Position numbers and translations under genes: made by a program | Shown here: piece by piece, positions 1,126-16,603 of the stretch | How the letters are laid out: the number at the start of each line of letters is the position of its first letter | How positions within the stretch are numbered: position 1 is the first letter of the stretch | The notes under the pieces: model-generated | What the model was told of the DNA's origin: nothing | What the model saw: only the letters and a program-made list of their open reading frames with translations | Databases searched by the model: none | NCBI GenBank assembly: GCA_017482205.1 | Contig: JAFUNK010000003.1 | Span: 1 to 64,000, forward strand | Reading direction: 5' to 3' | DNA length: 64,000 nt | Origin: Lachnospiraceae bacterium | GTDB taxonomy: Bacteria; Bacillota; Clostridia; Lachnospirales; Lachnospiraceae

Positions 1126-1395
1126 GAATGAAAAGCAGATAGTTAATCATCCATAATTGCTACAAAGTGGGTTGCATTAACTTTTGCAGAAGAAAATGCG
1201 AGCCGCTATTTTGGCATGTAAACAATTAAGCCTTATTCAACAGTTTCAATCGAATTATATCACATAAAATACCAGAAAAACAGAAAATACAATAATTAAT
1301 GTATTGGAAAACCTTTTGACTTTGCAATAAGTTTTTCATTTAAGCTAAAAAATAAAAGGCCGGACAACCTCAAAATGGGTGAGAAAGGAGAAAAA
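1126..1395. other. Intergenic, probable IS30 right end and leader of the next gene
   Basis: No gene is seen here. The stretch GTGGGTTGCATTAACTTTTG around 1167-1186 lies where an IS30 terminal repeat would be expected, but the left end of the element is outside the window so the match cannot be tested. The remainder is AT-rich and ends with a good ribosome binding site (AAAGGAG, 1384-1390) for the gene starting at 1396. Confidence 0.35.
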
Positions 1396-2013
1396 ATGGG
1401 TATGAGAATGATAAGTAAAGAATCAACAAGTATGGTATATCATAGGGCGGAATGCAGGTATGCACGAAAAATTTATAAAGAAAACCGATTACAGATGAAC
1501 TGGGAGGATGCTGAGTGGAAAGGATATCGTCCATGCAAATGTTGTGACAGTATCAGTTTCCTTTATAGTATGGAACTGGACAACATTGAATGTTTTGCAG
1601 AGCAACACAATTTGGATATCGATTTAAAAAACAATAAAATCTATGTCAGAACAGATGTAGGCTGCTGGAAGATTGTTTATAAGAAAGGTAACCAGAAATT
1701 TATACTGTTACATAGGAATTATGTTGATGGGCGTATTGCTCTTGATGAGGTGGATAATGCACCCTATCATCGGCAAGGCGATATGGGTGAAGCAGGAAGT
1801 ATTATGAAATACCTGAAATATATTCAAAAGCATGATGCATTTAAACAAAATATGCCGACGGACTATCGGCATATGCCGCGGAATACCAAGAGGCAAAAAG
1901 CTTATTACCGGTCAGCAAAAAGAAAAGCCCAAAAGTGTAGTGCCAGACGATTGGATAGTTTATTTGTTTTGATTGAAGGGCAGCAAAATATTAAGAGTTT
2001 ATCATTTTGTTAA
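1396..2013 (+). CDS. Hypothetical protein with Cys/His metal-binding-like N-terminus
   Basis: Start chosen at ATG 1396 because AAAGGAG ends 5 nt upstream; an in-frame ATG at 1375 lies before that site. The N-terminal 50 residues contain MVYHRAECRYARKI followed by YRPCKCC. The YH-x3-C-x-Y ... PC-x-CC pattern resembles the small metal-binding motif (Ada-like) found at the ends of some nucleases and recombination proteins. The rest has no family I recognise; the C-terminus is strongly basic (RNTKRQKAYYRSAKRKAQK), suggesting nucleic-acid contact. It sits between the IS30 element and a HIRAN gene, 18 nt upstream of the latter, and is probably accessory cargo. Function unknown. Confidence 0.65.
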   Translation: MGMRMISKESTSMVYHRAECRYARKIYKENRLQMNWEDAEWKGYRPCKCCDSISFLYSMELDNIECFAEQHNLDIDLKNNKIYVRTDVGCWKIVYKKGNQKFILLHRNYVDGRIALDEVDNAPYHRQGDMGEAGSIMKYLKYIQKHDAFKQNMPTDYRHMPRNTKRQKAYYRSAKRKAQKCSARRLDSLFVLIEGQQNIKSLSFC

Positions 2014-2031
2014 TCAAGGGAGGAAAAGACT

Positions 2032-2373
2032 ATGGAAAAAATCTATTTTACAATTGCGGGAACCAAACATCATTACGGTCAGGAATACTTCGAGCCGAAG
2101 ATGGAAGTGAGATTGATAAAAGAACCGGATAATGAGTATGACAAAGAAGCTATCAAGGTGGAAGTGGACGGATTGGGACTTGTGGGTTATGTAGCTAACA
2201 GTCCTTACACCGTACAGGGAGAGAGCATGAGTGCAGGGCGACTTTATGACCGCATTGGTAATACTGCAAAGGGCGTTGTGAAGTATGTGTTACCGCAGGG
2301 GATTCTTTGTGAGTTGATGCTGGGGATTGTTGTAGGGAAAGAGAGAACAGTTTATAACATTTTTGGGGAATAG
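2032..2373 (+). CDS. HIRAN domain protein
   Basis: A 113-residue protein whose whole length looks like a HIRAN domain: FTIAGTKHHYGQEYFEP, then VRLIKEPDNEYDKEAIKVEV with the Asn-x-x-Asp-x-x-Ala core, then GLVGYVANSPYTV. HIRAN domains bind DNA ends or damaged DNA and occur alone in bacteria as well as fused to SNF2 helicases. The ribosome binding site AGGGAGG lies just before the ATG. It lies 18 nt after the Cys/His protein and may be cotranscribed with it. Its closeness to the SNF2 helicase at 3.2 kb is suggestive only, since another gene and a separate promoter lie between them. Confidence 0.8.
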   Translation: MEKIYFTIAGTKHHYGQEYFEPKMEVRLIKEPDNEYDKEAIKVEVDGLGLVGYVANSPYTVQGESMSAGRLYDRIGNTAKGVVKYVLPQGILCELMLGIVVGKERTVYNIFGE

Positions 2374-2539
2374 GTACAGTGCATTTTTTGTTGTGAAAGT
2401 TAAAAAGGTGCCAGTTATGTTAAGGTGTAAAGGCAGGGACGGTGTACAATGGGAAATGGTGAGAGTGTAAAAAATGTAAATAAAGTTTACTTGTTTTGAA
2501 TGAAAAATAGAATTTTATTTTAGAAAAGGAGTATAGGCT

Positions 2540-2839
2540 ATGGCAATGCATGATTGGAACCATGACGGTAAGAAAGATATGGTAGATAATTTTATTGAGT
2601 ACCAGATATATAAGGATGTGACAGGACAGAAGAATGAACCATCTTATACACCAAGCAGAGGTAACGGTATGTCTACCTTCGGGGCTATTGTAAGTGTGAT
2701 TGCTGGTCTGTTCATGCAGGCTGCTTTATATGTAGCACTGGGAATTGATGTTGATGATGTACCTGTATTTGTCATCATTATTTTGTGGGCCGTATTCTCA
2801 GCAATTGCAGCTGTTGTAGTGGAGAAAATAGGGTTATAA
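2540..2839 (+). CDS. Small two-helix membrane protein with an EF-hand-like N-terminus
   Basis: 99 residues. The N-terminus MAMHDWNHDGKKDMVDNFIEY has the D-x-N-x-D-G-x-x-D spacing of EF-hand or dockerin-like calcium loops. Two hydrophobic helices follow (about residues 48-68 and 74-95), and there is no signal peptide, so the N-terminal part is probably cytoplasmic. AAAAGGAG precedes the ATG. I do not know its function; similar short proteins are scattered in clostridial genomes. It is preceded by 166 bp without a gene (2374-2539). Confidence 0.7.
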   Translation: MAMHDWNHDGKKDMVDNFIEYQIYKDVTGQKNEPSYTPSRGNGMSTFGAIVSVIAGLFMQAALYVALGIDVDDVPVFVIIILWAVFSAIAAVVVEKIGL

Positions 2840-2900
2840 GACAATGGGAATTGGCGGTTGCTGGTTCCCTATTTCCAGTGTCAGAAATCTCAAGATTTGA

Positions 2901-2929
2901 TTGCTATTATTCCGATAGTGGAATATAAT
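2901..2929 (+). promoter_or_regulatory. Promoter of the defence island with an embedded inverted repeat
   Basis: A -35 like TTGCTA (2901-2906) and a perfect -10 TATAAT (2924-2929) are separated by exactly 17 nt. The spacer holds the inverted repeat TTCC-N6-GGAA (2910-2923), which a dimeric repressor could occupy to block RNA polymerase. The next gene (2955) encodes a small DNA-binding protein that is a natural candidate for autoregulation. The promoter is seen directly; the regulator assignment is inference. Confidence 0.65.
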
Positions 2930-2954
2930 AGAAGACAATAGGGAGGTTTCACAT

Positions 2955-3137
2955 ATGGAATATTTAACAACAGTAGAAATGTCTAAAAGATGGAATATTT
3001 CTTCAAGAAGAATCGGTGTTTTGTGTACTGAGGGAAGAGTTGAAGGAGCGATAAAGAAGGGTAAGATGTGGCTGATTCCATCCGATGCAGTGAAACCAGT
3101 AGATGGCAGATTTAAAGTAAATAAGGTAGAAGCATAA
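2955..3137 (+). CDS. Small winged-helix/excisionase-like DNA-binding protein
   Basis: 60 residues: EYLTTVEMSKRWNISSRRIGVLCTEGRVEGAIKKGKMWLIPSDAVKP. The layout (helix-turn-helix that 'reads' an amino-acid motif, then a wing ending in MWLIP-x-DA) is that of MerR/excisionase-like helix-turn-helix proteins. GGGAGG precedes the ATG by 8 nt. It is the first gene behind the promoter at 2901-2929 and lies 61 nt before the helicase gene, so it probably regulates the restriction/helicase operon. Small regulators of this type commonly head defence operons in Firmicutes; the specific role here is inferred. Confidence 0.8.
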   Translation: MEYLTTVEMSKRWNISSRRIGVLCTEGRVEGAIKKGKMWLIPSDAVKPVDGRFKVNKVEA

Positions 3138-3198
3138 TCGGCATCTGCGGTGGACTGCAACTACAACAAGAGATTACGAGTGAAAGAAGGTACGGGAA

Positions 3199-6100
3199 TT
3201 GATGGAGCTTATTGATAATGTCAACAAAACCTTAAAGGATGATTTGACGGTTAGCATTCAGAAGGATAGCAAAGTTTCTATAGCGGCTGCATGCTTCTCA
3301 ATCTATGCATTTCAGGAGCTTAAGAGAGAACTTAAGAATGTGGATGAATTGCGATTTATATTTACATCTCCGACATTCATTAAGGAAAAGGCAAAGAAAG
3401 AAAAACGAGAATTTTACATACCAAGGCAGACCAGAGAACGTAGCCTATATGGCTCTGAATTTGAAGTGAAGCTCAGAAATGAAATGACACAGAGAGCCAT
3501 AGCCAAAGAATGTGCAGAGTGGATTCGTAAGAAAGCCACATTTAAGTCCAATGTTACCAGTGAGAACATGATGGGCTTTATGAACGTGGATTCTAACAGC
3601 TATATGCCGATTAATGGATTTACTACCATTGACCTGGGATGTGAGCGAGGAAACAATGCCTATTATCCGATACAGAAGACTGACACACCAATGAGCCAAT
3701 TCTACCTTGATTTGTTTGAACAGATTTGGAACGATGAAGCACGCTTACAGGAAGTAACGGATGAGGTGATTGACAGTATTACTACGGTATATAATGAGAA
3801 TTCCCCTGACTATATCTACTTTGTGACACTTTACAATATTTTCAATGAGTTTCTGGAAGATGTATCAGAGGATGTGTTGCCGAATGAAGCTACTGGTTTT
3901 AAAGAGAGTAAAATTTGGAATCTGTTGTATAACTTCCAGAAGGATGCAGTGTTAGCCATCATCAATAAGCTGGAGAAGTATAACGGTTGTATCTTGGCAG
4001 ACTCCGTAGGTCTTGGTAAGACATTTACCTCTCTTGCCGTTATTAAATATTATGAGAACCGTAATAAATCCGTTTTGGTATTGTGCCCTAAGAAACTGGC
4101 AAATAACTGGAATACGTATAAGGATAACTATGTAAATAATCCGATTGCGGCTGATAGAATGCGTTATGATGTATTATTCCATACTGACCTTAGCAGGGAT
4201 GAGGGAACATCTAATGGTTTGGATTTAGACCGTTTAAATTGGGGGAACTATGACTTAGTGGTTATTGATGAGTCCCATAACTTCCGTAACGGTGGACGAG
4301 TATCGCAGGATGGAGATAAGGAAAACCGTTATTTGAAACTACTTAATAGAGTAATCAGAAAAGGTGTAAAGACGAAGGTGTTAATGCTTTCCGCTACACC
4401 AGTTAATAATAGATTTGTTGATTTAAAGAATCAGATTGCCCTTGCCTATGAAGGTGAGAGTAGCGTGCTGGATGGTAAATTGAACACCAGCAGAAGCATT
4501 GAGGATATCTTTAAACAGGCTCAAGGTGCGTTTAATACTTGGAGTAAGTGGGAGCCACAGGACAGAACCACATCAAGACTTCTTAAAATGCTGGATTTTG
4601 ATTTCTTTGAGGTGCTGGATAGTGTAACCATTGCAAGGTCTAGAAGACATATTGAAAAGTATTATGATACATCAGATATTGGTACATTTCCTAAGAGAAA
4701 CATCCCGATATCAAAGAGACCTGGGCTGACAGACCTTAACACTGCTATTAACTACAATGAAATCTTTGAACAGCTTAGCATGTTGCAGCTATGTATTTAT
4801 ACACCGACTTTGTTTATCCTGCCATCGAAGCTTGAAAAATACATGAGTAAGTATGACAGCAGACAGGTAAAGGGTGGTCTTACACAGTCAGGACGTGAGC
4901 AGGGTATCAGAAGACTTATGGCAACGAACCTGATGAAACGTATGGAAAGCTCAGTGTATGCGTTCCGCCTTACATTAGTAAGAATCAAGGATTACATTGA
5001 TAAGACCATAGAGACGATTACAGAATTTGAAAATACTTCCTACTCACAGAGCATGGTATTAAGTGATATCACCAATATTCATGAAGCAGAATTTGATGGT
5101 GATGATTTAAATGATGATGTTCTGGCAATTGGTAAGAAGGTTAGAATTGACCTTGCGGACATGGACTACAAAACATGGAAACATGAGCTGGAAAAAGACC
5201 AAGAAATATTAGACTTACTGGTGTGCATGATTGCAGATATTACCCCTGCTCATGATAGTAAGTTACAGGAATTGTTTGATGTGATTGATGAAAAGCAAGA
5301 GCATCCGATTAATGCTGGAAATAAGAAGATTATTATCTTTACGGCATTTGCAGATACCGCAGATTATTTGTTTGAAACAGTGGGGGTATATGCTAAGAAG
5401 AAGTTTGGATTAGACACAGCCTTGATAACAGGTTCCGTAGATGGTAAGACAACTATTCCTGGTCTTAAGACGGATTTGAATACGGTACTTACCTGTTTCT
5501 CACCGATATCCAAAGGTAAGAATTTGCTCCTGCCAAATAATACGGATGAGATTGATATTTTGATTGCTACTGACTGTATTTCAGAAGGTCAGAACCTTCA
5601 GGACTGTGATTACTTAATCAATTATGATATCCATTGGAATCCAGTTAGAATCATTCAGCGATTCGGGCGTATTGACCGTATCGGAAGTAGAAATGAGTGT
5701 ATTCAGCTTGTAAACTTCTGGCCTGACTTAACACTGGATGAGTACATCAATTTAAAAGCCAGAGTAGAAACCAGAATGAAGATTGTGGACATGACAGCTA
5801 CTGGCGATGACAACGTATTAAGTCCAGAAGAAAAGGGCGATTTGGAATATCGTAAGCAGCAGCTTAAACGATTACAGGAAGAGGTAGTGGATATTGAAGA
5901 AATGTCTTCTGGAATATCCATTATGGACTTAGGTTTAAATGAGTTCCGTTTGGATTTGCTGGATTATATGAAGACGCACCATGATGTTGAAAATGCACCA
6001 TACGGTATGAATGCGGTAGTAAAGGGTAATGATGAGCTGCCGCCTGGAGTTATCTATGTTCTTCGTAATGTGAAGAATGAAGTAAATATTAACAGCCAGA

Positions 6101-6441
6101 ACCGTTTGCATCCGTTCTACTTGGTATATATGTCAGATGATGGAGAAGTAGTCATTGACCATTTATCACCGAAAGAGATGTTGGATTCCTTCCGATACCT
6201 TTGTAAAGGTAAAACAGAACCTGACAAAGCATTGTGTGTTGCCTTTAATGAAGAGACGCAGGATGGCAGAAATATGAGTAAGTATTCTGAACTGCTGGGT
6301 GATTCTATTGCGTCCATCATAGAAGTAAAGGACGAGAACGATATGGACAGTTTCCTAAGCGGTAAGCAGATGAGCTTCTTATCGGAAACGATTAACGGAC
6401 TGGATGATTTTGAATTAATCAGCTTCTTGGTTATCCAATAG
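3199..6441 (+). CDS. SNF2-family helicase with PLD-like N-terminal region
   Basis: 1080 residues. An N-terminal region (about 1-160) starts like a phospholipase D-like module of SNF2 proteins (VSIAAACFSIYAFQELKREL...LRFIFTSPTF), but I see no HxK catalytic motif, so it is probably structural. The helicase core follows: Walker A ADSVGLGKTFTS (about 267-278), DEAH-type box VVIDESHNFRN (about 355), motif III LSATPVNNR (about 397), and C-terminal motifs TDCISEGQNLQ and QRFGRIDRIGSR (about 820). SNF2-type enzymes translocate on duplex DNA. The start is TTG 3199 or the adjacent ATG 3202; AAGAAGG ends at 3190. It lies 27 nt before the DUF4391 gene, so they likely form one operon, presumably acting on DNA in defence. 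Confidence 0.9.
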   Translation: MMELIDNVNKTLKDDLTVSIQKDSKVSIAAACFSIYAFQELKRELKNVDELRFIFTSPTFIKEKAKKEKREFYIPRQTRERSLYGSEFEVKLRNEMTQRAIAKECAEWIRKKATFKSNVTSENMMGFMNVDSNSYMPINGFTTIDLGCERGNNAYYPIQKTDTPMSQFYLDLFEQIWNDEARLQEVTDEVIDSITTVYNENSPDYIYFVTLYNIFNEFLEDVSEDVLPNEATGFKESKIWNLLYNFQKDAVLAIINKLEKYNGCILADSVGLGKTFTSLAVIKYYENRNKSVLVLCPKKLANNWNTYKDNYVNNPIAADRMRYDVLFHTDLSRDEGTSNGLDLDRLNWGNYDLVVIDESHNFRNGGRVSQDGDKENRYLKLLNRVIRKGVKTKVLMLSATPVNNRFVDLKNQIALAYEGESSVLDGKLNTSRSIEDIFKQAQGAFNTWSKWEPQDRTTSRLLKMLDFDFFEVLDSVTIARSRRHIEKYYDTSDIGTFPKRNIPISKRPGLTDLNTAINYNEIFEQLSMLQLCIYTPTLFILPSKLEKYMSKYDSRQVKGGLTQSGREQGIRRLMATNLMKRMESSVYAFRLTLVRIKDYIDKTIETITEFENTSYSQSMVLSDITNIHEAEFDGDDLNDDVLAIGKKVRIDLADMDYKTWKHELEKDQEILDLLVCMIADITPAHDSKLQELFDVIDEKQEHPINAGNKKIIIFTAFADTADYLFETVGVYAKKKFGLDTALITGSVDGKTTIPGLKTDLNTVLTCFSPISKGKNLLLPNNTDEIDILIATDCISEGQNLQDCDYLINYDIHWNPVRIIQRFGRIDRIGSRNECIQLVNFWPDLTLDEYINLKARVETRMKIVDMTATGDDNVLSPEEKGDLEYRKQQLKRLQEEVVDIEEMSSGISIMDLGLNEFRLDLLDYMKTHHDVENAPYGMNAVVKGNDELPPGVIYVLRNVKNEVNINSQNRLHPFYLVYMSDDGEVVIDHLSPKEMLDSFRYLCKGKTEPDKALCVAFNEETQDGRNMSKYSELLGDSIASIIEVKDENDMDSFLSGKQMSFLSETINGLDDFELISFLVIQ

Positions 6442-6468
6442 CCATAGCTGTAGATTGTGAGGTTACAA

Positions 6469-7089
6469 ATGAGTGTACATGGGTTGCCGAGCAGCACAGA
6501 AATAAGAAAGCCTGTACATAAAAAGCTTCTCTATGCAAAGTTTCCAACGGAACTGAGCGGTGAGAGACGAAAACAATTTGATGATGATATTGGTAGAATC
6601 ATTGTAACGAATGAGATTTCGCCTATATCGGTAAACATCAAAGAGGGAGAACAGGTCAAGTCGATTTTTGTGCTACAAGTAGAACTTAAGAACAAAGCGT
6701 ACAATGAAAGAAATATTGTGCTTATATCGAAACTGTTCGGACAGCATCTGTTGATTGCATTGAAATATGCGGATGAAGTTCAGCTGGCGACCTATCAGAC
6801 ATGGTTGTTACATTCTGAGTGGATGGGTGCAGATGATGCTGGTGTTATATTATCGGGACTTGATTTAGATGCAGTCTGGGAGAGTTTGGTTACACAGGTA
6901 TCAGGTATTGTAGTGGCTGCTGAGAATAGCTTGGATGAGCAGATTGTTATTGAGCAGGAGAAAGCTAAGCTGTTGAAACAGATAGAGGACCTGGAGAAAA
7001 AGGCACGTAAGGAAACCCAGGCTAAGAAGAAGTTTGAAATGTTCCAGCGATTAAAAGCGTATCAGAAGCGATTGGAGGAGATGAATTGA
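6469..7089 (+). CDS. DUF4391 domain protein
   Basis: About 206 residues. Start at ATG 6469, 5 nt after GTGAGGT; a GTG at 6457 is less likely. The core (VHKKLLYAKFPTELSGERRKQFDDDIGRIIVTNEISP...GEQVKSIFVLQVELKNK...LLIALKYADEVQLATYQTWLLHSEWM) is the pattern of DUF4391 proteins. The C-terminal 55 residues are a charged coiled coil (EQEKAKLLKQIEDLEKKARK). From general experience this family is annotated next to helicases and type III methyltransferases; no biochemical activity is known to me. It sits between the helicase and a membrane gene, whose start codon overlaps its stop, indicating translational coupling. Confidence 0.85.
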   Translation: MSVHGLPSSTEIRKPVHKKLLYAKFPTELSGERRKQFDDDIGRIIVTNEISPISVNIKEGEQVKSIFVLQVELKNKAYNERNIVLISKLFGQHLLIALKYADEVQLATYQTWLLHSEWMGADDAGVILSGLDLDAVWESLVTQVSGIVVAAENSLDEQIVIEQEKAKLLKQIEDLEKKARKETQAKKKFEMFQRLKAYQKRLEEMN

Positions 7090-7910
7090 AGAAAATTAGA
7101 GAAATGCTGAAATGGAGAAAAACAGCTGCTGGTAAAATTTCTATTATTCTTTTAATTTCAAGTGTGATTTTGCTTGTGATAGCATGTTCACCATGGGGAA
7201 ATTTTACGGAAAGAACGGCAAACAATATTAATAATATTTTATTTGGAATTGCTACAAATTTGTTGGGGATTATCGTTACAGTATCGTTTGTTCAATATTT
7301 TATAGATAAGCAGGATGAACAAGAAGAACTTATTCAAGAGAAGAATATGATTATAAAATACAACAGGGTTATGAATCTGTTTTTAAAAAAATATAAAAAG
7401 TACTATAATTGCGTAACTAATCCAATGGTGGAAAGAAAAAATATTGATGCATTAACTCTTAATCCGAAGTTTCAATTTCAAGATATGCGAGATATGTATC
7501 GACAATCTTTGTTTTTATCAGATGGTTTTTACGAACCGTCGATAGTTCTTTTTTATAGAGCCGAAGATAATTTGAGAAGTTATATTATTAAAATGTTGGA
7601 AAATATACAATTTAAATATCATGAAGAATTGTATGACCTACTCATAGAATTTGTTGAGTTATCGCAGTCAATAGATGTGAGAGGTTCTATATTAGATGAC
7701 ATATTAGTAAAAAAAATTGATGAAAAATTTTTGAGAGAGATAGAGGGATACATTAAAGAAGCAGAACAGCATAAATGGGTCGAGAGAGCATTAGAAGGTA
7801 ATTTGGTTTCAAATGTAATGCTACCATATGTGCAGTTGTATTGGCTAATTCAAAAAGAAGCAGAGTTGTTGATTAGATATGAAGAATATATATCGAAAAT
7901 CGCTAAGTGA
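7086..7910 (+). CDS. Unknown membrane-anchored protein inside the restriction operon
   Basis: 274 residues from a TTG start at 7086 that overlaps the previous stop; GGAGGAG (7074-7080) is correctly spaced, supporting this start over ATG 7104. Two hydrophobic helices (about 17-37 and 50-70) form an N-terminal anchor; the remaining 200 residues are a charged, mostly helical cytoplasmic domain (YFIDKQDEQEELIQEKNMIIKYNRVMN...). I recognise no family. The DNA is visibly more AT-rich than the helicase before it and the res gene after it, hinting that it was inserted or swapped separately. A membrane protein within a type III restriction operon is unusual; it could be a membrane effector or a passenger. 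Confidence 0.8.
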   Translation: MKKIREMLKWRKTAAGKISIILLISSVILLVIACSPWGNFTERTANNINNILFGIATNLLGIIVTVSFVQYFIDKQDEQEELIQEKNMIIKYNRVMNLFLKKYKKYYNCVTNPMVERKNIDALTLNPKFQFQDMRDMYRQSLFLSDGFYEPSIVLFYRAEDNLRSYIIKMLENIQFKYHEELYDLLIEFVELSQSIDVRGSILDDILVKKIDEKFLREIEGYIKEAEQHKWVERALEGNLVSNVMLPYVQLYWLIQKEAELLIRYEEYISKIAK

Positions 7911-7933
7911 ATACAAGATGGAGGTACAGAGAA

Positions 7934-9916
7934 ATGAATAGATTAGATATGCAGACAAGGAATATTGCAGATGAAAATTATGCGGCATTGGTGAAATTGT
8001 TCCCGAATGCTTTAACAGAAAAGATAATTGGTTATGATGAGGAAGGCAAGGCTGTTATTGAAAGAGCTATTGATGTAGATATACTTAGGCAAGAGATATC
8101 CTGTAGTGTGGTTGAAGGTAGGGATGAAAGATATCAGTTTACATGGCCTGACAAAAAAAGAACGATACTTCTTGCAAATGCTCCGATAGCAAAAACACTT
8201 AGACCCTGTAGAGCTGAAAGTGTTGATTTTGATAATACAGAAAATTTATATATTGAAGGTGATAATCTTGAAGTTTTAAAACTGTTGCAAGAGACGTATC
8301 TTGGAAAAATTAAACTTATATATATAGACCCACCATATAATACAGGCAATGATTTTGTATATGAGGATGATTTTTCACAATCTATAGAAGATTATTTAGC
8401 TAATAGTTTTCAATATGACATTGAAGGAAATAGGCTTGTTCATAATCCTGAATCAAATGGTCGCTATCATACGGATTGGTTGAATATGATATATCCTCGT
8501 TTAAAATTAGCTAAGAGTTTATTATCTGACGATGGAGTAATTTTTATTTCAATAGATGATAATGAAGTTGATAATCTAAAGAAAATATGTGATGAATTAT
8601 TTGGAGAAGAAAATCATCAAGCAACTATTAGTTATGTACGAAAGACGTCAGGAAAACAGGATAGTACAAACTTTATGAAGTCAACCGAATTTATTGTGAT
8701 TTATAGTAAGAGTGATTTATGGGAATGTAGACCATTAATTGCAGAAGACAATGTTACTGATAGATATAACAAAGCTGATGCAGATGGAAGAAGATATAGA
8801 GAAACGGATTTGAGAAAAACTGGTAGCGGAGATAGAAGAGAAGATAGACCATTGATGTGGTATCCATTTTATTACAATGCTGATAAGGAACATTTGGTAG
8901 TGTGTGAAAAAGAAAATCCTGATTATATACAGAAAGGGTATAAAGAAATATGGCCAATAAAACCAGATGGTTCAGAAGGTAGATGGAGATGGGGGTATTC
9001 GACAGCAGTTGCAAATCTAAATTTTTTAGTTGCTAGAATTATGCCAAAATATAAAGCAGAAGATAAGTATACTGTATATGAGAAAGACTATATTGATAAA
9101 AATGGTGATGTGCGTACAGTGAAAGAACATACCAGTTGGGATAGAAAAGAGTTTAATTCAGACAATGCAATGCAAGAATTTAAGAATCTTGGGTTTAGTA
9201 ATCAACTATTTCCATTTCCTAAAAGTTCTGCATTAATTAAGCACATAATATATCTTGCAAATTGTGAAGAGGGTATAATTTTAGATTTCTTTTCAGGGTC
9301 AGGTACTACTGCACAGGGAATACTGAGACAGAATGCAGAAGATGGTAGTAAAAGAAAATTTATAATGGTTCAACTTCCAGAAAAAACTGAAGACAAAAGT
9401 GAAGCAAAAAAAGCAGGCTATGATACGATTTGTGAGATAGGCAAAGAACGTATTCGTCGTGCAGGTGCTAAGATAAAAGAAGATTACGGTATGGTGGCAA
9501 GTGATTTAGATGTAGGTTTTAGAGTATTAAAAGTAGATACATCTAATATGAAAGATGTGTATTATAGTCCATCGCAAGTAGGTCAGCAGTCGTTATTTGA
9601 CATGACAGACAATATCAAAGAAGACCGTACACCAGAAGATTTATTATTCCAGGTAATGCTTGATTTGGGTGTTTTGCTTTCAAGTAAGATTGAAGAGAAA
9701 ATTATTGCTGGCAAGAAGGTGTTCAATGTTGCTGACGGTTTCTTAATGGCATGCTTTGATAATGATGTTACGGAAGAGACTGTAAAAGCAGTAGCACAGG
9801 AAAAGCCATATTACGCAGTATTCAGAGATAGTAGTATGGCGAATGACAGCGTTGCTACAAACTTTGAACAGATTTTTGCAACTTATAGTCCGGAGACAGT
9901 AAGGAAGGTGTTGTAA
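7934..9916 (+). CDS. mod: Type III restriction-modification DNA methyltransferase (Mod)
   Basis: About 660 residues. Start at ATG 7934, 8 nt after GGAGGT; a GTG at 7907 precedes that site. Motif IV IYIDPPYNTGNDF (about residue 131) comes before the SAM-binding motif ILDFFSGSGTT (about 453), the order of beta-class N6-adenine methyltransferases, which includes type III Mod. The long region between holds the target recognition domain. Mod recognises the site and methylates adenine, and is needed by Res for cleavage. The first three quarters are strikingly AT-rich while the last 400 bp resemble the neighbouring genes, suggesting exchange of the recognition and catalytic part. The stop overlaps the RhuM start by one base. 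Confidence 0.95.
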   Translation: MNRLDMQTRNIADENYAALVKLFPNALTEKIIGYDEEGKAVIERAIDVDILRQEISCSVVEGRDERYQFTWPDKKRTILLANAPIAKTLRPCRAESVDFDNTENLYIEGDNLEVLKLLQETYLGKIKLIYIDPPYNTGNDFVYEDDFSQSIEDYLANSFQYDIEGNRLVHNPESNGRYHTDWLNMIYPRLKLAKSLLSDDGVIFISIDDNEVDNLKKICDELFGEENHQATISYVRKTSGKQDSTNFMKSTEFIVIYSKSDLWECRPLIAEDNVTDRYNKADADGRRYRETDLRKTGSGDRREDRPLMWYPFYYNADKEHLVVCEKENPDYIQKGYKEIWPIKPDGSEGRWRWGYSTAVANLNFLVARIMPKYKAEDKYTVYEKDYIDKNGDVRTVKEHTSWDRKEFNSDNAMQEFKNLGFSNQLFPFPKSSALIKHIIYLANCEEGIILDFFSGSGTTAQGILRQNAEDGSKRKFIMVQLPEKTEDKSEAKKAGYDTICEIGKERIRRAGAKIKEDYGMVASDLDVGFRVLKVDTSNMKDVYYSPSQVGQQSLFDMTDNIKEDRTPEDLLFQVMLDLGVLLSSKIEEKIIAGKKVFNVADGFLMACFDNDVTEETVKAVAQEKPYYAVFRDSSMANDSVATNFEQIFATYSPETVRKVL

Positions 9917-10941
9917 TGGGGAAGACATATGAAGTATCTGAACTGGGTGATATGCTGATTTACCAGAATGAGAAAGGCGATACAAAGGTAGATGTTTACT
10001 TTTTTGAAAAAGATATCTGGATGAGTCAAGCTGCGATTGCCCAGATGTATAATACGACACCACAGAATATCACTATGCATATAAAGAACATCTATGAGGA
10101 CGGTGAATTGGATGAGGATTCAACTTGTAAGGAATTCTTACAAGTTCAAACTGAGGGTACCCGACAGATAAAGAGAAATAAGAAACATTATAATTTTCGT
10201 ATGATTTTGGCAATCGGATATAGGGTTCGTTCTAATGTTGGTGTACATTTTAGAAATTGGGCGTCAGGAATACTGGAAGAGTATACAAGAAAAGGCTTTG
10301 CCATGAACGATGAAAGATTAAAGAATCCGAAGCAGTTTGGTGAAGATTATTTTGATGAACTCTTAGAAAGAATTCGTGATATCCGTGCTTCTGAAAAGAG
10401 ATTTTACCAGAAGATATGCGAAATCTATAAAACATCCATTGATTATAGCAGCAGGGATGAAGAAGCAAAATTGTTTTTTAAGACGGTGCAGAATAAGATT
10501 CACTATGGTGTTCATGGTCATACTGCCGCAGAATTGATTATGCAAAGAGCAGATGCAACTAAGGATAACATGGGATTAACAACATTTGAAGGTGCCAAGG
10601 TTCGCAAAAAGGATGTAGATATTGCAAAGAATTATTTGAGTGAAGAAGAGATGTCAGAGCTTAACCGAGTAGTTACCATGTATCTGGATTTTGCAGAAGA
10701 CCAGGCAAGAAGACGTATTCCGATGTATATGAAAGACTGGGAAGAAAAGTTGAATTCCTTTTTGAATATGACAGGGAGAGAAGTGCTTTCCGGAGCAGGG
10801 CATGTATCAGCTGACCAGGCGAAGAAACATGCATTAAAGCAGTATGCAATCTATGATGAGCACAGATTGCAGATGCAGGAAGAACAGGTAGTGGATGAGC
10901 TAATGCAAAGTGCAAAAGATATCAAAATGGGAAAGAAGTAG
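9916..10941 (+). CDS. RhuM family protein
   Basis: 341 residues matching the RhuM ('virulence protein') pattern: LIYQNEKGDTKVDVYFFEKDIWMSQAAIAQMYNTTPQNITMHIKNIYEDGEL, then FRMILAIGYRVRSNVGVHFRNWA, then a C-terminal TYDFAEDQARRR-like segment (LDFAEDQARRRIPMYMKDW). The N-terminal part contains a helix-turn-helix-like stretch (MSQAAIAQMYNTTPQNI). RhuM proteins are often found between genes of restriction systems; their role is not established. Here it separates mod from res, with overlap TAATG at the mod stop and 12 nt before res, so all three are likely translated together. Confidence 0.9.
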   Translation: MGKTYEVSELGDMLIYQNEKGDTKVDVYFFEKDIWMSQAAIAQMYNTTPQNITMHIKNIYEDGELDEDSTCKEFLQVQTEGTRQIKRNKKHYNFRMILAIGYRVRSNVGVHFRNWASGILEEYTRKGFAMNDERLKNPKQFGEDYFDELLERIRDIRASEKRFYQKICEIYKTSIDYSSRDEEAKLFFKTVQNKIHYGVHGHTAAELIMQRADATKDNMGLTTFEGAKVRKKDVDIAKNYLSEEEMSELNRVVTMYLDFAEDQARRRIPMYMKDWEEKLNSFLNMTGREVLSGAGHVSADQAKKHALKQYAIYDEHRLQMQEEQVVDELMQSAKDIKMGKK

Positions 10942-10953
10942 GAGGTGCACGTA

Positions 10954-13900
10954 TTGAAATTCAATTTTAAAATACAGCAGTATCAGACGGATGCTGTTGA
11001 TAGTGTGGTTGGAGTTTTCAAGGGGCAGCCTTATTCTGACCCTGTAAATTATAGAAGGGATATTGGTAAAGTAAAATCATCTGTTTCCTATTCCCAGATG
11101 TCCTTTGTGGATTCTATGTTCGAACAGCAGGAATTGAATCTTACAGATGACTTTGATGATGCTGGATTTAAGAATGAAATCGTTGCATTACCTGATGCAG
11201 CGTTGCTTGCCAATATCAGAGAAACACAGCAGAACAACAATGTGAAGTTATCAGACAAGTTAATCAACAACTTGGGTAGATGTTCTTTGGATGTGGAGAT
11301 GGAGACCGGTACCGGTAAGACCTATGTATATATTAAGACCATGTATGAGCTGAACAAGCATTATGGCTGGTCAAAGTTTATTGTAGTCGTACCATCTATT
11401 GCTATTAGGGAAGGTGTAAAGAAGTCATTTGAGATTACGCAGGACCACTTTATGGAGCAGTATGGTAAGAAGGTTCGCTTCTTTGTGTATAACAGTAGTA
11501 ATCTGAATCAACTAGATGCATTTTCAAGCAATTCAGGTATCAATGTTATGATTATCAATATGCAGGCTTTTAACACGTCCATGAAGGAAGGTGGTAAGAG
11601 TAAAGAAGCACGTATTATCTACGATAAGAGAGATGAATTCGGTAGCAGAAGACCGATTGATGTTATCAAGGCCAATAATCCGATTATTATTTTGGATGAA
11701 CCGCAGAAAATGGGCGGTGATGCAACACAGAAAGCATTACAGAATTTTAATCCATTGTTCTGCTTGAATTATTCCGCTACCCATAAAGAGCATCATAATC
11801 TGGTGTATGCGTTGGATGCAGTAGATGCTTACAATCAGAGATTGGTTAAGAGAATTGAAGTAAAAGGCTTCCAGGTAAAGAATTTTCGTGGTACGGACAA
11901 GTATCTTTATCTGGAGAGTATCATTGTTTCACCGAAGCATCCGCCGAGAGCACGTATAGAGTTTGAGGTTAAGTACGATAAATCCATAAATCGTGAAATG
12001 AGAATCCTTGGTGTGGATGATAACCTGTATGAGTTGTCAAAGAACATGGAGCAGTATAAGGGATATCGTATCTCTGAGATAGACCCGATTACAGGTTCTG
12101 TTACCTTTACTAATGGTGAAGTGATTCGCAAGGGTGATGTGGTTGGTGATGTTTCTGAAGAGGATATGAGAAGAATCCAGATTCGTGAGACAATCATTTC
12201 CCACATGGAGAAGGAAGAAGAATTATTTAATCGTGGTATTAAGACATTATCTTTGTTCTTCATTGATGAGGTTGCGAAGTACCGTATGTATGATGAAGAT
12301 GGTGAAGAGCTGCTTGGCGAGTACGGACAGATGTTTGAGGAAGAATACCGTGATGTGGTAAACAATTACATTACGATTTTTGATACGCCATACCAGAGAT
12401 ATTTGAAAGCTATCGAGGTAGAGGCTACTCATAAAGGTTACTTTAGTATTGATAAGAAAGGTTGTGCTGTAAACAGTGATATCAAGAGAGGTTCTGATTT
12501 CTCAGATGATATTTCAGCATATGACTTAATCCTAAAGAATAAAGAAAGACTACTTAGTTTCACTGAGCCTACAAGATTTATTTTCTCTCACTCTGCTTTA
12601 AGAGAAGGTTGGGATAATCCAAATGTATTCCAAATCTGTACCCTTAAGCACAGTGACAGTACCACGATGAAGAGACAGGAAGTAGGCCGTGGTCTTCGTT
12701 TATGTGTAAATCAGGAAGGCTTCCGTATGGATGAACAGAGTCTTGGTAAAGACCTGGTACATAAAGTAAATAAGCTTACTGTTGTTGCTAGCGAAAGTTA
12801 CAAGGAATTTGTTACTGATTTACAGAGACAGATTAAGGAAGTTCTTTATGACAGACCGACCAAAGCATCCAAGGAATACTTTGTTGGTAAGACTGTTCAG
12901 GTGGACGGTATTCCGCAGAAAATATCAGACCAGCAGGCTACAGCAATTTATAGATATTTACTTAAGAATGATTACATTGATGACAATGAGCATATCACAG
13001 AGCAGTACCGTGCTGATTTAGAAAATAACGCACTGGCTCCGCTGGCAGAAGAACTTAAGCCAATGACGGAAGGTATTCATAAACTTGTACAGAGTATCTT
13101 TGATGATAAGATTCTGGAAGATATGATTGGTAATGGTAACGAAACAACCGTTCCGAGCAATGATTTGAATGAGAATTTTGCCAAGAAGGAATTCCAGACA
13201 TTGTGGAATTACATCAATCATAAGTATGCATATACTGTTGATTTTGATAGTAATGAGCTTATTAAGAAAGCCATAGAACAGATTGACAGAGAGTTATTTG
13301 TATCTCAGTTGCAGTATACCGTATCCAAATCAGAACAGCGTGATGTGATGAATGCAATGATGGTAAGAGAAAGCAATTCTTTCTATGAAGCCAAGTCCAG
13401 CACAACTACGCTGAAGCATTCTGAAACCAGCCAGATTAAGTATGACCTGATTGGTAAGATTGCAGAAGGTACTGTGCTTACAAGAAAGACTGTTGCAACT
13501 ATTTTACAGGGCATCAGCCCGATTAAATTTGCTATGTTCAAAAATAATCCAGAGGAATTTATTACAAAGGTTATCAGGCTGATTAAGGAACAGAAGGCAA
13601 CTATGATTGTGGAGCATATTTCATATGACCAGATTGAAGGCAAGTACGATAGCTCAATCTTTACAGCAGAGAAGCACGCAAGCTTTGACAAGGCATACAG
13701 AGCAGAAAAGCACATTCAGGACTATGTATTTACGGATGGCACCGCTGAAAAGAGCGTAGAGCGTAGATTTGCAGAAGAACTGGATGGAGCAAAAGAAGTA
13801 TGCGTATATGCGAAGTTACCGAAAGGTTTTGCAATTCCAACACCTGTAGGAAGCTATTCTCCTGACTGGGCGATTGCATTCTATGAAGGTACGGTGAAGC

Positions 13901-14082
13901 ACATTTACTTTATAGCAGAGACCAAAGGTACAATGGAAAGCTTGGAGCTTAGACCGATAGTGAAAGCTAAGATTTCCTGTGCAAGAAAGTTGTTCAATGA
14001 GATTTCTACAGAGAATGTGGTGTACCATGATGTAGATAGTTACCAGAGTCTGCTTAATATTATGAATAGTATAGAGAAGTAG
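10954..14082 (+). CDS. res: Type III restriction enzyme Res subunit (helicase-nuclease)
   Basis: About 1042 residues. A GTG at 10945 lies inside the ribosome binding site GGAGGTG, so the TTG at 10954 (MKFNFKIQQYQ) is the better start. Walker A is METGTGKTYVYIKT (about 117), the DExx box is IILDEPQKMGG (about 247), motif III-like NYSATHKE, and motif VI-like QEVGRGLRLCVN follow. At the C-terminus SPDWAIAFYEG...HIYFIAETKGTME gives the PD...E-T-K arrangement of the type III endonuclease domain (about 969-990). With Mod it forms the ATP-dependent type III complex cutting DNA away from head-to-head sites. No frameshift is visible, so the system looks intact. Confidence 0.95.
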   Translation: MKFNFKIQQYQTDAVDSVVGVFKGQPYSDPVNYRRDIGKVKSSVSYSQMSFVDSMFEQQELNLTDDFDDAGFKNEIVALPDAALLANIRETQQNNNVKLSDKLINNLGRCSLDVEMETGTGKTYVYIKTMYELNKHYGWSKFIVVVPSIAIREGVKKSFEITQDHFMEQYGKKVRFFVYNSSNLNQLDAFSSNSGINVMIINMQAFNTSMKEGGKSKEARIIYDKRDEFGSRRPIDVIKANNPIIILDEPQKMGGDATQKALQNFNPLFCLNYSATHKEHHNLVYALDAVDAYNQRLVKRIEVKGFQVKNFRGTDKYLYLESIIVSPKHPPRARIEFEVKYDKSINREMRILGVDDNLYELSKNMEQYKGYRISEIDPITGSVTFTNGEVIRKGDVVGDVSEEDMRRIQIRETIISHMEKEEELFNRGIKTLSLFFIDEVAKYRMYDEDGEELLGEYGQMFEEEYRDVVNNYITIFDTPYQRYLKAIEVEATHKGYFSIDKKGCAVNSDIKRGSDFSDDISAYDLILKNKERLLSFTEPTRFIFSHSALREGWDNPNVFQICTLKHSDSTTMKRQEVGRGLRLCVNQEGFRMDEQSLGKDLVHKVNKLTVVASESYKEFVTDLQRQIKEVLYDRPTKASKEYFVGKTVQVDGIPQKISDQQATAIYRYLLKNDYIDDNEHITEQYRADLENNALAPLAEELKPMTEGIHKLVQSIFDDKILEDMIGNGNETTVPSNDLNENFAKKEFQTLWNYINHKYAYTVDFDSNELIKKAIEQIDRELFVSQLQYTVSKSEQRDVMNAMMVRESNSFYEAKSSTTTLKHSETSQIKYDLIGKIAEGTVLTRKTVATILQGISPIKFAMFKNNPEEFITKVIRLIKEQKATMIVEHISYDQIEGKYDSSIFTAEKHASFDKAYRAEKHIQDYVFTDGTAEKSVERRFAEELDGAKEVCVYAKLPKGFAIPTPVGSYSPDWAIAFYEGTVKHIYFIAETKGTMESLELRPIVKAKISCARKLFNEISTENVVYHDVDSYQSLLNIMNSIEK

Positions 14083-14122
14083 CTAGGCAAGTGGTACATG
14101 GTATTTGAAAGGAAGGGCGATT

Positions 14123-14350
14123 ATGGCTGGAGAAATTAAATATGAAATCATAGAAGAGCTTGGAGTGCTCTTTGAAAGTGCCAAGGGATGGACAAAAGAA
14201 TTGAATCTCATTTCATGGAATGGCGGTGCTCCTAAGTACGATATTCGTGATTGGGCACCTGAACATGAGAAGATGGGCAAAGGTGTTACACTCAGCGAAG
14301 AAGAAGCTAAAAAGCTGTATGTGTTATTAAGTAAGGTTGTTGAGGATTAA
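14123..14350 (+). CDS. YdbC-like PC4 family protein
   Basis: 75 residues, start at ATG 14123 after GGAAGGG. Sequence IKYEIIEELGVLFESAKGWTKELNLISWNGGAPKYDIRDWAPEHEKMGKGVTLSEEEAKKLYVLL is the bacterial PC4/YdbC single-strand DNA-binding fold seen in Firmicutes (Trp and aromatic residues, DIRDW motif, closing GVTLSEEE helix). The family binds single-stranded nucleic acid. It lies 40 nt after res and may share its transcript. It could assist DNA unwinding by the helicases of the island, although YdbC relatives also occur alone in ordinary chromosomal positions. Confidence 0.8.
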   Translation: MAGEIKYEIIEELGVLFESAKGWTKELNLISWNGGAPKYDIRDWAPEHEKMGKGVTLSEEEAKKLYVLLSKVVED

Positions 14351-14403
14351 AATATCAAGCATTATAATTTGCATAAGATTTTGCAAGTTAGGAAAGGAAA
14401 GTC

Positions 14404-15414
14404 ATGAAAGCGGAATTAATGGAGTTACTTGAGGGATTTTCCAAGACTTTAACGGTCTGGAAATATAATAGCTATGTGTTTAAAGTAAGAGATTATTTTA
14501 TTCCTTATTTATTAGAGAATAAACAGGGAATGTCTGTTGAGAGAGTCTTCCGGGAAGAGTTTACAAGAATGGACATAGTGAATGCAACGGTATATTATGT
14601 TGAGCATAATCGTAATGTAGAAAGTCTATCCGCTATACATGACTTTCTGGTGATGCTGAATGTTCTATTTGGTTATATTTTTGAAAAATACCCTAATTCC
14701 AATTTGCAACAGTACAAATCGTTTACAGTGTTTCAAAACGAAATAATAGAAGCATTGGAAAGCAAGGGAATATCGCTGAAAAGCAAAGAAGTATATCCTT
14801 CATTAGATTATGAAAAGTTTGATTTTGTCATTAATTACGTTAAGACAACTAATGTAAGGGATTGTAGGTTAAAGAAGTTCAAAACCAATGCAATAGCAAT
14901 AAAATTATTAATATTGTATGGTATAAGCTTAGACAAGCTTTCTGCTTTAAAAGTGAATAATTATGATTACAAAAGGCGTGCAATAGAAATTCCTGGAAAT
15001 GATGAAAGAGATAAAATCTATTTAGAAATTCCTTATTCTTTGGCGTTAGAGATTGAAGAATACTTGGAAAGCAGAAATGCTAAAAAATCGGATTATTTAC
15101 TTGCAAAGAATTCAAATACGCAAATTGATCCATCTTTCGTTAAGGATACCTTGGATGTCATAAGGCAAGAATATGAAGAAATTTTTGATAAGGATGATGG
15201 CGTAAATCAGTTTACTGTTACCGGAATACAAAAATTTGCTATTGTACAAATGATTTTGGCAGGTATGAATCAAGCTGTAATAAAAGAATTTACAGGTCAA
15301 GGTGATGATATACTTGAGGATTGCCAGAGGCAGGTTAATGTTGAAAAGAAAATAGATATTAACCGGCATATTAATTTTACAATGCGTGGTATTGAAACAT
15401 ACGATATAATATAA
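14404..15414 (+). CDS. Recombinase-fold protein lacking tyrosine-recombinase catalytic residues
   Basis: 336 residues. The N-terminal half resembles a SAM-like core-binding domain; the C-terminal half follows a phage-integrase layout. The segment KLLILYGISLDKLSALKVNNYDYKRRAIEI (split here as YGISLDKLSALK, about 171) aligns with the usual TGLRISELLAL block, but the catalytic Arg position is Ser. The later block VTGIQKFAIVQMILAGM (about 271) aligns with HxLRHTFAT..LL.AG, but His, Arg and His are replaced. No convincing Tyr nucleophile follows (EFTGQGDDILEDC). It is thus probably a non-catalytic DNA-binding relative. AGGAAAGG precedes the ATG. It lies 53 nt after the YdbC gene, at the end of the operon. 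The alignment is by eye. Confidence 0.6.
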   Translation: MKAELMELLEGFSKTLTVWKYNSYVFKVRDYFIPYLLENKQGMSVERVFREEFTRMDIVNATVYYVEHNRNVESLSAIHDFLVMLNVLFGYIFEKYPNSNLQQYKSFTVFQNEIIEALESKGISLKSKEVYPSLDYEKFDFVINYVKTTNVRDCRLKKFKTNAIAIKLLILYGISLDKLSALKVNNYDYKRRAIEIPGNDERDKIYLEIPYSLALEIEEYLESRNAKKSDYLLAKNSNTQIDPSFVKDTLDVIRQEYEEIFDKDDGVNQFTVTGIQKFAIVQMILAGMNQAVIKEFTGQGDDILEDCQRQVNVEKKIDINRHINFTMRGIETYDII

Positions 15415-15504
15415 GCACTTAATAAAGAGTTTAAGTTTTCGGCTATATTTTTTTGGGGGTACATTTTACATGAATAAAGTCACTCTGTTTACAATGTAAA
15501 TGGG

Positions 15505-15564
15505 TTGAAGTTTTTATGTTTTGATGTATAATAGAGGAAGAAAGTACGCAAGATAATACGCAAG
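15505..15564 (+). promoter_or_regulatory. Promoter of the fic gene with direct repeats downstream
   Basis: TTGAAG (15505-15510) and TATAAT (15527-15532) are 16 nt apart. Just downstream, around the expected transcription start, TACGCAAG occurs twice (15545-15552 and 15557-15564), 12 nt apart, which is close to one helical turn and could be an operator. GGAGGTG follows before the ATG at 15582. An inverted pair ATTTTACAT/ATGTAAAT lies upstream (about 15462-15500). Confidence 0.55.
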
Positions 15565-15581
15565 TACGTGGAGGTGTTTAA

Positions 15582-16574
15582 ATGGGAAATTACAAGCCAC
15601 CTTTTACAATTACAAATGAGATATTATCATATGTTTCCTCTATTTCGGAAAAGATTGGACGCATTACAGCAACCGGTAATTTGGAAGCGAAACCGCATCT
15701 TAGAAAGAATAACCGTATTAAGTCTATCCATTCTTCACTAAAAATTGAAGCCAATTCTCTTTCTTTGGGGCAGGTTAGGGATGTAATCAACGGAAAGATG
15801 GTATTGGGTGAGCAGAGAGAAATTCAGGAAGTAAAAAATGCTTATGCGGCCTATGAACGATTCAGTGAAATTCAACCATATAGCATTAAAAGTTTAAAGC
15901 AGTTCCACGGCATTATGACAAAATATGTTGTAGAAGAATCCGGTAATTTTCGACGAGGTGAGGAAGGTGTATTTAATGGTGAACGGTGTATTTTTATGGC
16001 ACCGCCGGCATATCTGGTTCCGCAGCAAATGGACGAACTTTTTGGCTGGATGAGAGAAGCACATGGAAACATTCACCCGTTGGTTTTGAGCAGTGTATTC
16101 CATTATGAATTTGTTTTTATTCATCCATTTTCTGATGGGAATGGTAGAATGGCAAGACTGTGGCATACAGCGCTGCTTTCTCAGTGGAAGCCAATATTTG
16201 AATATATTCCTATAGAAAGCCGGATTGAAAAGTTTCAGGATGAATACTATGACGCGATTGCTAAGTGCCATGTGGATGGTTCATCTACCATTTTTATTGA
16301 GTTTATGTTGGTGCAGATTGATAAGATCTTGGACGATATTTCTTTGCAAATCAGTGAGGATAATGAACAGCTTTCCGAGTACATCAAAAAACTTCTTGAG
16401 GTAATGGAATATGATATTCCCTATACGAGCAAGGTGCTTATGGAAAAATTGGGACTGAAATCGAGAGAGGGATTTCGTAGGAATTACCTACATCCGGCAG
16501 TAGAGATGAATCTTGTCCGTATGACAGTTCCGGATAAACCTAACAGCAAGAATCAAAGATATATAAAAGGCTAA
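15582..16574 (+). CDS. fic: Fic domain protein (AMP-transferase type), class II
   Basis: 330 residues. The Fic motif HPFSDGNGRMARLW (about 180-193) is complete, with the catalytic His, so the protein should transfer AMP or a similar nucleotide group to a target. The N-terminal SSLKIEANS (about 49-57) matches the (S/T)xxxE(G/N) inhibitory helix region of class II Fic proteins, in which the Glu blocks ATP binding. The C-terminal 80 residues look like a winged helix (YTSKVLMEKLGLKSREGFRRNYLHPA). It has its own promoter, is followed by a terminator, and closes the accessory island. Stand-alone regulatory enzyme or toxin-like effector are both possible; no separate antitoxin gene is seen. Confidence 0.9.
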   Translation: MGNYKPPFTITNEILSYVSSISEKIGRITATGNLEAKPHLRKNNRIKSIHSSLKIEANSLSLGQVRDVINGKMVLGEQREIQEVKNAYAAYERFSEIQPYSIKSLKQFHGIMTKYVVEESGNFRRGEEGVFNGERCIFMAPPAYLVPQQMDELFGWMREAHGNIHPLVLSSVFHYEFVFIHPFSDGNGRMARLWHTALLSQWKPIFEYIPIESRIEKFQDEYYDAIAKCHVDGSSTIFIEFMLVQIDKILDDISLQISEDNEQLSEYIKKLLEVMEYDIPYTSKVLMEKLGLKSREGFRRNYLHPAVEMNLVRMTVPDKPNSKNQRYIKG

Positions 16575-16603
16575 CTGCACTAATAAATAAACTTACGTTT
16601 GAG

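Follow-up and report, generated by a model that had tools for sequence, protein, structure and literature searches.

A type III restriction cassette accompanied by an SNF2-type motor and a DUF4391 protein in a Lachnospiraceae bacterium

Type III restriction is usually treated as a two-gene affair of a methyltransferase, Mod, and an endonuclease, Res. In a Lachnospiraceae bacterium (GenBank assembly GCA_017482205.1) such a pair lies among seven further genes on the plus strand at positions 2955–15414 of contig JAFUNK010000003.1, the first 64,000 nucleotides of which are called the window below, and the locus raises the question of which of the nine genes belong together. The first-pass annotation had proposed a distinct multi-gene antiphage system made of all nine. 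The nine co-directional open reading frames (ORFs) were confirmed by ORF listing with longest-ORF starts, profile scans agreed with most of the names given, and the island indeed holds more than a Mod–Res pair, but only four of the nine genes are conserved as a set: the gene for an SNF2-type motor (hereafter HEL), a DUF4391 gene, mod and res. Sequence comparison indicates that the conserved unit is HEL–DUF4391–Mod–Res, which is widespread and apparently unnamed.

The four-gene core and its conservation

The core genes of the window are as follows.

3199..6441, plus strand: core gene 1, HEL, SNF2-type motor with a degenerate phospholipase D (PLD)-like N-terminal region (Pfam and PADLOC profiles)
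6457..7089, plus strand: core gene 2, DUF4391 protein, C-terminal part coiled-coil-like (PF14335, 1e-30)
7907..9916, plus strand: core gene 3, Mod, type III methyltransferase (PADLOC MTase_III, 6.2e-217; intact DPPY at residue 141)
10945..14082, plus strand: core gene 4, Res, type III ATP-dependent endonuclease (PADLOC REase_III, 7.7e-295)

A scan of genome contigs gave at least 583 candidates, of which the best 80 were used as loci, so that close relatives are over-represented; by record title these 80 belong to Bacillota, Bacteroidota, Pseudomonadota, Verrucomicrobiota, Planctomycetota, Spirochaetota, Synergistota and others. A phylum survey with the Pfam DUF4391 profile across 348 genomes found the family in 31 genomes, and 32 further loci were added. 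The pooled 134 loci were reduced to 122 with a HEL of more than 900 aa and 600 bits (12 with a short or weak HEL dropped), then to 116 without near-duplicates (6 dropped) and to 91 with at least 6 kb downstream (25 dropped). ORFs were longest-start calls made without a gene finder.

DUF4391, Mod and Res lie downstream of HEL in 87 of these 91 non-redundant loci, and in all 87 the order and strand are the same; two more loci (L064, L065) have a diverged DUF4391 recognised by PF14335 at 149 and 124 bits, which brings the total to 89 of 91. Viewed from DUF4391, all 31 loci whose contig extends upstream have HEL or a remnant of it immediately before that gene; Mod follows in 31 of 31, and Res in all 28 whose contig is long enough (manual counts). 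In the phylum survey HEL was found in 30 genomes, DUF4391 in 31 and both in 28. One of the two HEL-only genomes (G374) has a stop-containing fragment, and in the other (G602, locus L248) the contig ends soon after HEL; among the three DUF4391-only genomes one locus begins at a contig edge and two keep HEL remnants. The first-pass annotation had held that its proposal would fall if the helicase and DUF4391 occurred independently of Mod and Res in most genomes; this was not so, the genes being nearly always together.

The picture extends to mobile DNA. In a second, independent set drawn from viral contigs (80 loci, 58 with at least 6 kb downstream, near-duplicates kept) all three partners follow HEL in 47 of the 58 loci. 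The 11 exceptions comprise three with a broken mod (L281, L286, L311), four with other partners (L326, L332, L334, L343), L333 with Res straight after HEL, L346 and two loci at 28–29% identity. At E ≤ 1e-50, HEL matched 107 records in a plasmid collection of 72,556 and 5 in a phage collection of 50,697, and 87 of 5,426 Escherichia coli genomes match one gammaproteobacterial HEL by DNA. Twelve named regions were examined: E. coli H6, NCTC11023, ECONIH5 and CFT073, seven plasmids (of E. coli, Acinetobacter, Listeria, Enterococcus, Vibrio, Lactiplantibacillus and Microcystis) and one phage record, Erysipelothrix phage phi1605. DUF4391 follows HEL in 11 of the 12 according to our own profile (it is sometimes annotated otherwise), then annotated Mod and Res; the exception is Microcystis (27% identity), with an N-6 methylase and a MotA-like gene in place of DUF4391–Mod–Res. 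In these regions the NCBI annotation names the parts, and no system name was seen for the set.

Closer to the window, an order survey of 295 genomes (helicase matches counted at E ≤ 1e-20) found DUF4391 in 14 and the helicase in 25, the weakest helicase matches being other SNF2 proteins by score. Neither DUF4391 nor Res had a match in six other genomes of the same genus; one same-genus genome (G214) gave a helicase match of 160 bits, 32% identical over part of HEL, which we take to be another SNF2 family.

HEL (1080 aa) matches Helicase_C at 3.2e-15 and the PADLOC profile C3a139, 'HKD+Snf2', at 1.8e-134 over residues 1–1079. The helicase motifs GLGKT, DES[HL] and QRxGR occur in 77 of 77 HEL relatives and SATP in 76, the same number of relatives or loci being used for all motif and distance comparisons. 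HxKxxxx(D/G) was found in 1 of 77 segments covering the first 230 residues, not in the window protein, and the looser HxK in 12 of 77; the reading of HEL as an active HKD (PLD) nuclease was rejected because the motif was not found in the N-terminal region. For DUF4391 no solved relative was found by sequence, the best PDB match being a designed coiled coil at E 0.066.

Mod of the window has DPPY at residue 141 and the S-adenosylmethionine (AdoMet) stretch DFFSGSGTT, as expected of a beta-class type III Mod. The pattern [DSN]PP[YFW] occurs in 77 of 77 relatives, and the AdoMet pattern F.GSGT, which is too narrow, fits 9 of 77. Res carries the ResIII and RE_endonuc (PD-(D/E)xK-type) domains of a type III Res, and the EcoP15I Res structure 4zcf (4.9e-66) is the only PDB relative listed for it at E ≤ 0.001; PD..(E/D)xK and DEP occur in 77 of 77 relatives and G[TS]GKT in 56 of 77. 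Both proteins look intact by these motifs, which bears out the complete type III pair of the first-pass annotation.

The four genes also appear to fall into two pairs. Where HEL and DUF4391 adjoin, the joint is at most 30 nucleotides (nt) in 73 of 76 cases. Pairwise distances between HEL and DUF4391 correlate across the 77 loci with rho = 0.73 and those between Mod and Res with 0.72, compared with 0.57–0.66 for the other pairs. Linkage and distances together fit two sub-modules, HEL–DUF4391 and Mod–Res.

As to the setting on plasmids and phages, the bare four-gene cassette adjoins repA on the E. coli plasmid pEC21Z137-115K (L230) and on comparable plasmids, typed as IncFIB and about 110 kb long. 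These plasmids, which also carry a gene for the DNA polymerase III alpha subunit, presumably resemble phage-plasmids. The cassette of the phi1605 record (L275) lies near annotated macrolide-resistance genes, and that of an Acinetobacter plasmid (L269) is on a plasmid whose name mentions NDM-1. In Lactiplantibacillus plantarum X7022 (L274) the four genes stand without cargo on a plasmid of 16.8 kb.

The proposed role of the HEL–DUF4391 pair

We consider the unit to be a type III cassette in which the HEL–DUF4391 pair serves as an accessory motor arm, with a probability of roughly 0.55. By homology to EcoP15I, Mod would mark one strand of an asymmetric site, and Mod–Res would cut DNA with unmarked sites. 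HEL, an SNF2-type DNA motor lacking a nuclease motif and paired with DUF4391, would be brought to foreign DNA by Mod–Res or by the absence of Mod's marks. There, the pair may move along or remodel the DNA, so that restriction reaches further or continues when Res is blocked. The analysis establishes conservation, gene order, coupling and the state of the motifs; the complex, the recruitment and the antiphage role are our inference. Mod–Res is accompanied by an additional motor and DUF4391 across phyla, on chromosomes including those of E. coli, on plasmids and in a phage record, and a missing component of type III restriction may therefore have been overlooked.

A number of observations weigh against such an arm. 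In L144, HEL and DUF4391 are followed by a fragment of Mod, with Res not in view; in L248 an unrelated ORF follows HEL before the contig end; in L333 Res comes directly after HEL. The minus-strand locus L059 (G277:C25, 68–11564) has HEL, a DUF4391-like gene (16.5 bits, under the cut-off), two UvrD-type helicases and genes of 855 and 246 aa that have no Pfam match, with no Mod or Res in the 12.7 kb of sequence available. In L326, L332 and L343 HEL (about 39–42% identity) is followed by a type IIG-like methyltransferase of 1200–1360 aa and an ATPase-resembling gene, with no Mod or Res; this arrangement is possibly another system built on the same motor. L227 and L228 have only HEL remnants beside Mod and Res. 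In a Res tree (FastTree, midpoint-rooted, 154 tips, 11 Fitch changes) 7 of the 21 HEL-negative tips have less than 5 kb upstream, and the other 14 have more than 5 kb, which shows Res standing without HEL. The distance correlations share host phylogeny. Finally, in passages of Murray et al. 2021 (PMC8259958) the third gene of the type III system Eco86II, a different SNF2 protein, was unneeded for methylation and unseen in the active fraction.

Three of these points, namely the other partners of HEL in L059, L326, L332 and L343, the Mod–Res pairs kept where HEL has decayed and the dispensable third gene of Eco86II (PMC8259958, in the passages cited), would also be expected if HEL–DUF4391 were a separate defence module that merely travels and is co-expressed with Mod–Res. 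A module of that kind is possible, though on balance we think it unlikely, since the fixed order and the tight joints with Mod–Res hold in 87 of 91 loci from many phyla, and HEL and DUF4391 co-occur in 28 of 30 and 28 of 31 genomes.

A bolder variant would make HEL, usually with DUF4391, a portable motor that serves type III Mod–Res, a type IIG-like methyltransferase with its ATPase and a UvrD pair alike; in its type III form it would watch Mod–Res and, when a phage blocks them, act itself and free the effectors encoded in the gaps of the cassette, much as PrrC acts when EcoprrI is blocked. This we regard as speculative and quite unlikely in its full form.

We hold it improbable that HEL–DUF4391 restrains or regulates Res, for example by shielding host DNA that is still unmethylated once the cassette has entered a new host. 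Plasmid-borne cassettes (among the 107 matching records), for which establishment in a new host matters, would suit such a role, and Res is known to need control according to parts of PMC12707154; against it, HEL-less cassettes exist and persist, and an ATP-driven motor of 1080 residues would be costly for regulation.

With regard to the other arrangements, L330 and L334 probably share that of L326, L332 and L343. The L059 type was not found again on plasmids, where the 855-aa gene had two matches, neither with an annotated HEL nearby. SNF2 genes near an ordinary Mod in L184 and L191 were tried as HEL relatives and rejected: they are SNF2 by Pfam and reach just 30 and 43 bits with the HEL profile, and the L191 protein, searched against plasmids, hit nothing beyond partial matches here and there.

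Gaps, cargo and interruptions of mod

The remaining five genes of the island occupy the gaps and the flanks.

2955..3137, plus strand: small helix-turn-helix (HTH) protein, probable regulator, peripheral (60 aa; HTH_17, 1.3e-4, under the Pfam cut-off)
7086..7910, plus strand: cargo in the DUF4391–Mod gap, protein with two hydrophobic N-terminal segments (274 aa, no Pfam match)
9916..10941, plus strand: cargo in the Mod–Res gap, RhuM, PADLOC PDC-S05 (PF13310, 5.6e-113; PDC-S05, 3.9e-139)
14105..14350, plus strand: YdbC/PC4-like single-stranded DNA-binding protein, peripheral (PF02229, 1.1e-11; YdbC structure 2ltd, 1.6e-26)
14404..15414, plus strand: recombinase-fold protein with catalytic residues apparently lost, peripheral (XerA model, 1.6e-7, and Phage_integrase, 8.8e-4, both under the cut-off)

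From HEL through the YdbC gene the joints range from a 4-nt overlap to a 22-nt gap (longest-ORF starts); 61 nt separate the HTH gene from HEL and 53 nt the YdbC gene from the recombinase-like one. The single promoter of the first-pass annotation found no support: the HTH gene is preceded by a 10-of-12 promoter-like match at 2901–2929, but the region has no more such matches than expected by chance (37 vs. a shuffle mean of 48.7).

Among the 87 complete loci, the HEL–DUF4391 joint holds an insert of at least 90 aa in 11, the DUF4391–Mod gap in 43 and the Mod–Res gap in 35, with none in 33; at 200 aa the figures are 4, 34 and 28, with none in 38. The 103 inserts form 65 clusters, 46 of them singletons. 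Of the inserts listed, 63 between DUF4391 and Mod and 44 between Mod and Res, 61 and 43 respectively were scanned, and the 25 commonest families listed include SIR2, HerA, GajA- and AriA-like ATPases, Fic, TIR, Schlafen, RhuM, YhcG, Zeta, the Shedu C-domain and Abi_2, with few members each except RhuM (10 of 43 scanned Mod–Res inserts). Within the 87 loci RhuM is confined to the Mod–Res gap (8 loci including the window), and it stands in the same gap in two viral contigs; in L117 a RhuM-like gene precedes HEL.

The membrane protein of the window, with hydrophobic segments at residues 18–36 and 48–66, matches 2 of the 294 other genomes of the order, in one case as a 97-residue stretch with two stops, and in both genomes no helicase match at E ≤ 1e-20 and no DUF4391 match was found. 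Since this gene and RhuM sit in gaps that elsewhere are empty or filled with unrelated genes, they are cargo rather than core, contrary to the first-pass annotation, which had counted the membrane gene as part of the system. In terms of the proposed motor arm, both would be interchangeable operon passengers outside the core. Judged by the diversity of the inserts, genes in the gaps appear in general to be interchangeable passengers, some of them known defence genes, and the two often-filled gaps supply candidate defence genes by position. Extra defence genes in R-M (restriction–modification) operon gaps are described for other R-M types in parts of PMC12255303, PMC12707154 and PMC12629846. A dedicated system of nine, or at least six, genes with the membrane protein and RhuM as fixed effectors is highly improbable, because the tight joints in the window and the 8-of-8 placement of RhuM stand against 33 of 87 complete cassettes with no insert of at least 90 aa (38 at 200 aa), 65 clusters of inserts with 46 one-member ones, and the RhuM-like gene before HEL in L117.

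Two further ideas about the gaps did not hold. Filled gaps are not special to HEL cassettes, as same-strand ORFs of at least 100 aa occur between Mod and Res in 5 of 18 HEL-less Mod–Res loci (L183, L184, L187, L188, L191; manual count). A preference of membrane cargo for the DUF4391–Mod gap was seen in the first set (a predicted membrane segment in 18 of 53 DUF4391–Mod vs. 1 of 38 Mod–Res inserts, p = 1.7e-4; by clusters 12 of 39 vs. 1 of 21, p = 0.023, weaker at other thresholds) and was dropped because the viral set did not replicate it (5 of 23 vs. 3 of 15, p = 1.0).

The flanking genes are peripheral to the core. An HTH gene similar to that of the window precedes HEL in L021, and in E. coli NCTC11023 an HTH gene named MAD1-like by NCBI does so. 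A YdbC/PC4-like gene follows Res in two other loci (L064, L065) and precedes HEL in L216. The recombinase-like gene had no relative among the cassette loci compared or the plasmids searched, and in its product the usual tyrosine-recombinase catalytic residues appear replaced (by eye; profile matches under the cut-off).

A second kind of insertion affects mod itself. The gene is cut at the same codon, ending in ...IYI[D/E] without PPY, in six places (L281:7475, L286:14506, L311:5744, L313:14251, L093:13188 and L020:6938, the last being G095:C45), compared with 231 intact pattern matches, duplicates included. In L281, L286 and L311 large serine recombinases are encoded close to the break, and none was identified at the break in L093, L313 and G095. 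In G095 the missing right half of mod, from PPYNTG onward, is found at the end of another contig (the end of L267, G095:C4), and TGATACAA recurs just after four of the breaks (by eye). We read these breaks as the work of mobile elements that insert site-specifically within the codons for catalytic motif IV; the site looks like an attachment site placed within codons that are hard to change. It should be added that G095 has a second mod beside the broken one, and that two tandem mod genes occur within one cassette in L069, L077, L102, L294 and L327.

The contig starts at window position 1, and the left edge of the island is therefore out of view. The island side (1–16600) has a G+C content of 0.372 compared with 0.427 for the rest of the window, which appears to be ordinary chromosome from about 16.8 kb onward. 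The contig edge (19–2373) carries three ORFs, one transposase-like by eye, one unknown and one with a HIRAN domain, and a Fic-family gene at 15582–16574 comes right after the island; some cassettes also contain Fic genes.

Comparison with known systems

Canonical type III R-M, as represented by EcoP15I, shares the Mod and Res families and motifs with the cassette and is without HEL and DUF4391. The profile C3a139, a protein profile only, matches HEL over its full length, but the HKD motif that its name contains is absent in HEL. DrmD of DISARM, the BREX helicases, Hma and Dpd resemble HEL in the SNF2 core, partially and far under the curated cut-offs. DISARM was rejected, with DrmD at 149 bits vs. 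a cut-off of 610 and DrmA as a partial helicase match only; neither DrmB nor DrmC was among the families listed (best 25 each) for ten proteins of the window region.

A preprint by Payne et al. from 2024 is said to describe defence genes carried inside R-M operons. Passengers of this kind, placed between R-M genes, are also reported, in parts of the respective papers, for PrrC in EcoprrI (PMC12707154) and DarTG2 in type I R-M (PMC12255303). What sets the window cassette apart from these operons is that the carrier is of type III, consists of four genes and has two gaps that are often filled.

The first-pass annotation knew of no named system of this composition, and none was found in the sources searched. 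In the openly licensed papers searched, PF14335, C3a139 and 'DUF4391 domain' are unmentioned and 'DUF4391' appears only as an off-topic table row; among type III systems that include an additional SNF2 or PLD gene, nothing nearer than Eco86II and BspHIV was found there. As described in passages of Murray et al. 2021 (PMC8259958), these two type III systems have an extra helicase-like gene before mod, and over 500 genomes have close homologues of it next to Mod and Res. The likeness to the window cassette lies in a motor gene 5' of mod and res whose role is, in the same passages, unknown (PMC8259958). About 140 bp of non-coding DNA separate helicase and mod in BspHIV, a locus known to us from that paper alone (PMC8259958, in part), which would leave no room for DUF4391.

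Membership of the Eco86II type was rejected for the window cassette, as its extra motor is of another SNF2 family and does not stand directly before mod. For this comparison, the type III locus of E. coli NCTC86 (L276; this locus of the genome only) was taken to be Eco86II. Its motor is DrmD-like (663.5 bits) and aligns to HEL in the helicase core only, at 28–31%; Mod comes straight after the motor with no DUF4391, whereas DUF4391 lies between them in the window, and by PADLOC its Mod, of 1040 aa, and its Res, of 1126 aa, fall into type III clusters other than those of the window proteins. Because the motor, the Mod–Res pair and the presence of DUF4391 all differ, the window cassette is a separate case from this presumed Eco86II. 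Taken as a whole, the case seems parallel to that of the unexplained third gene of Eco86II, but with another motor and a fourth gene, and the parallel makes it testable why a second motor should take part in type III restriction.

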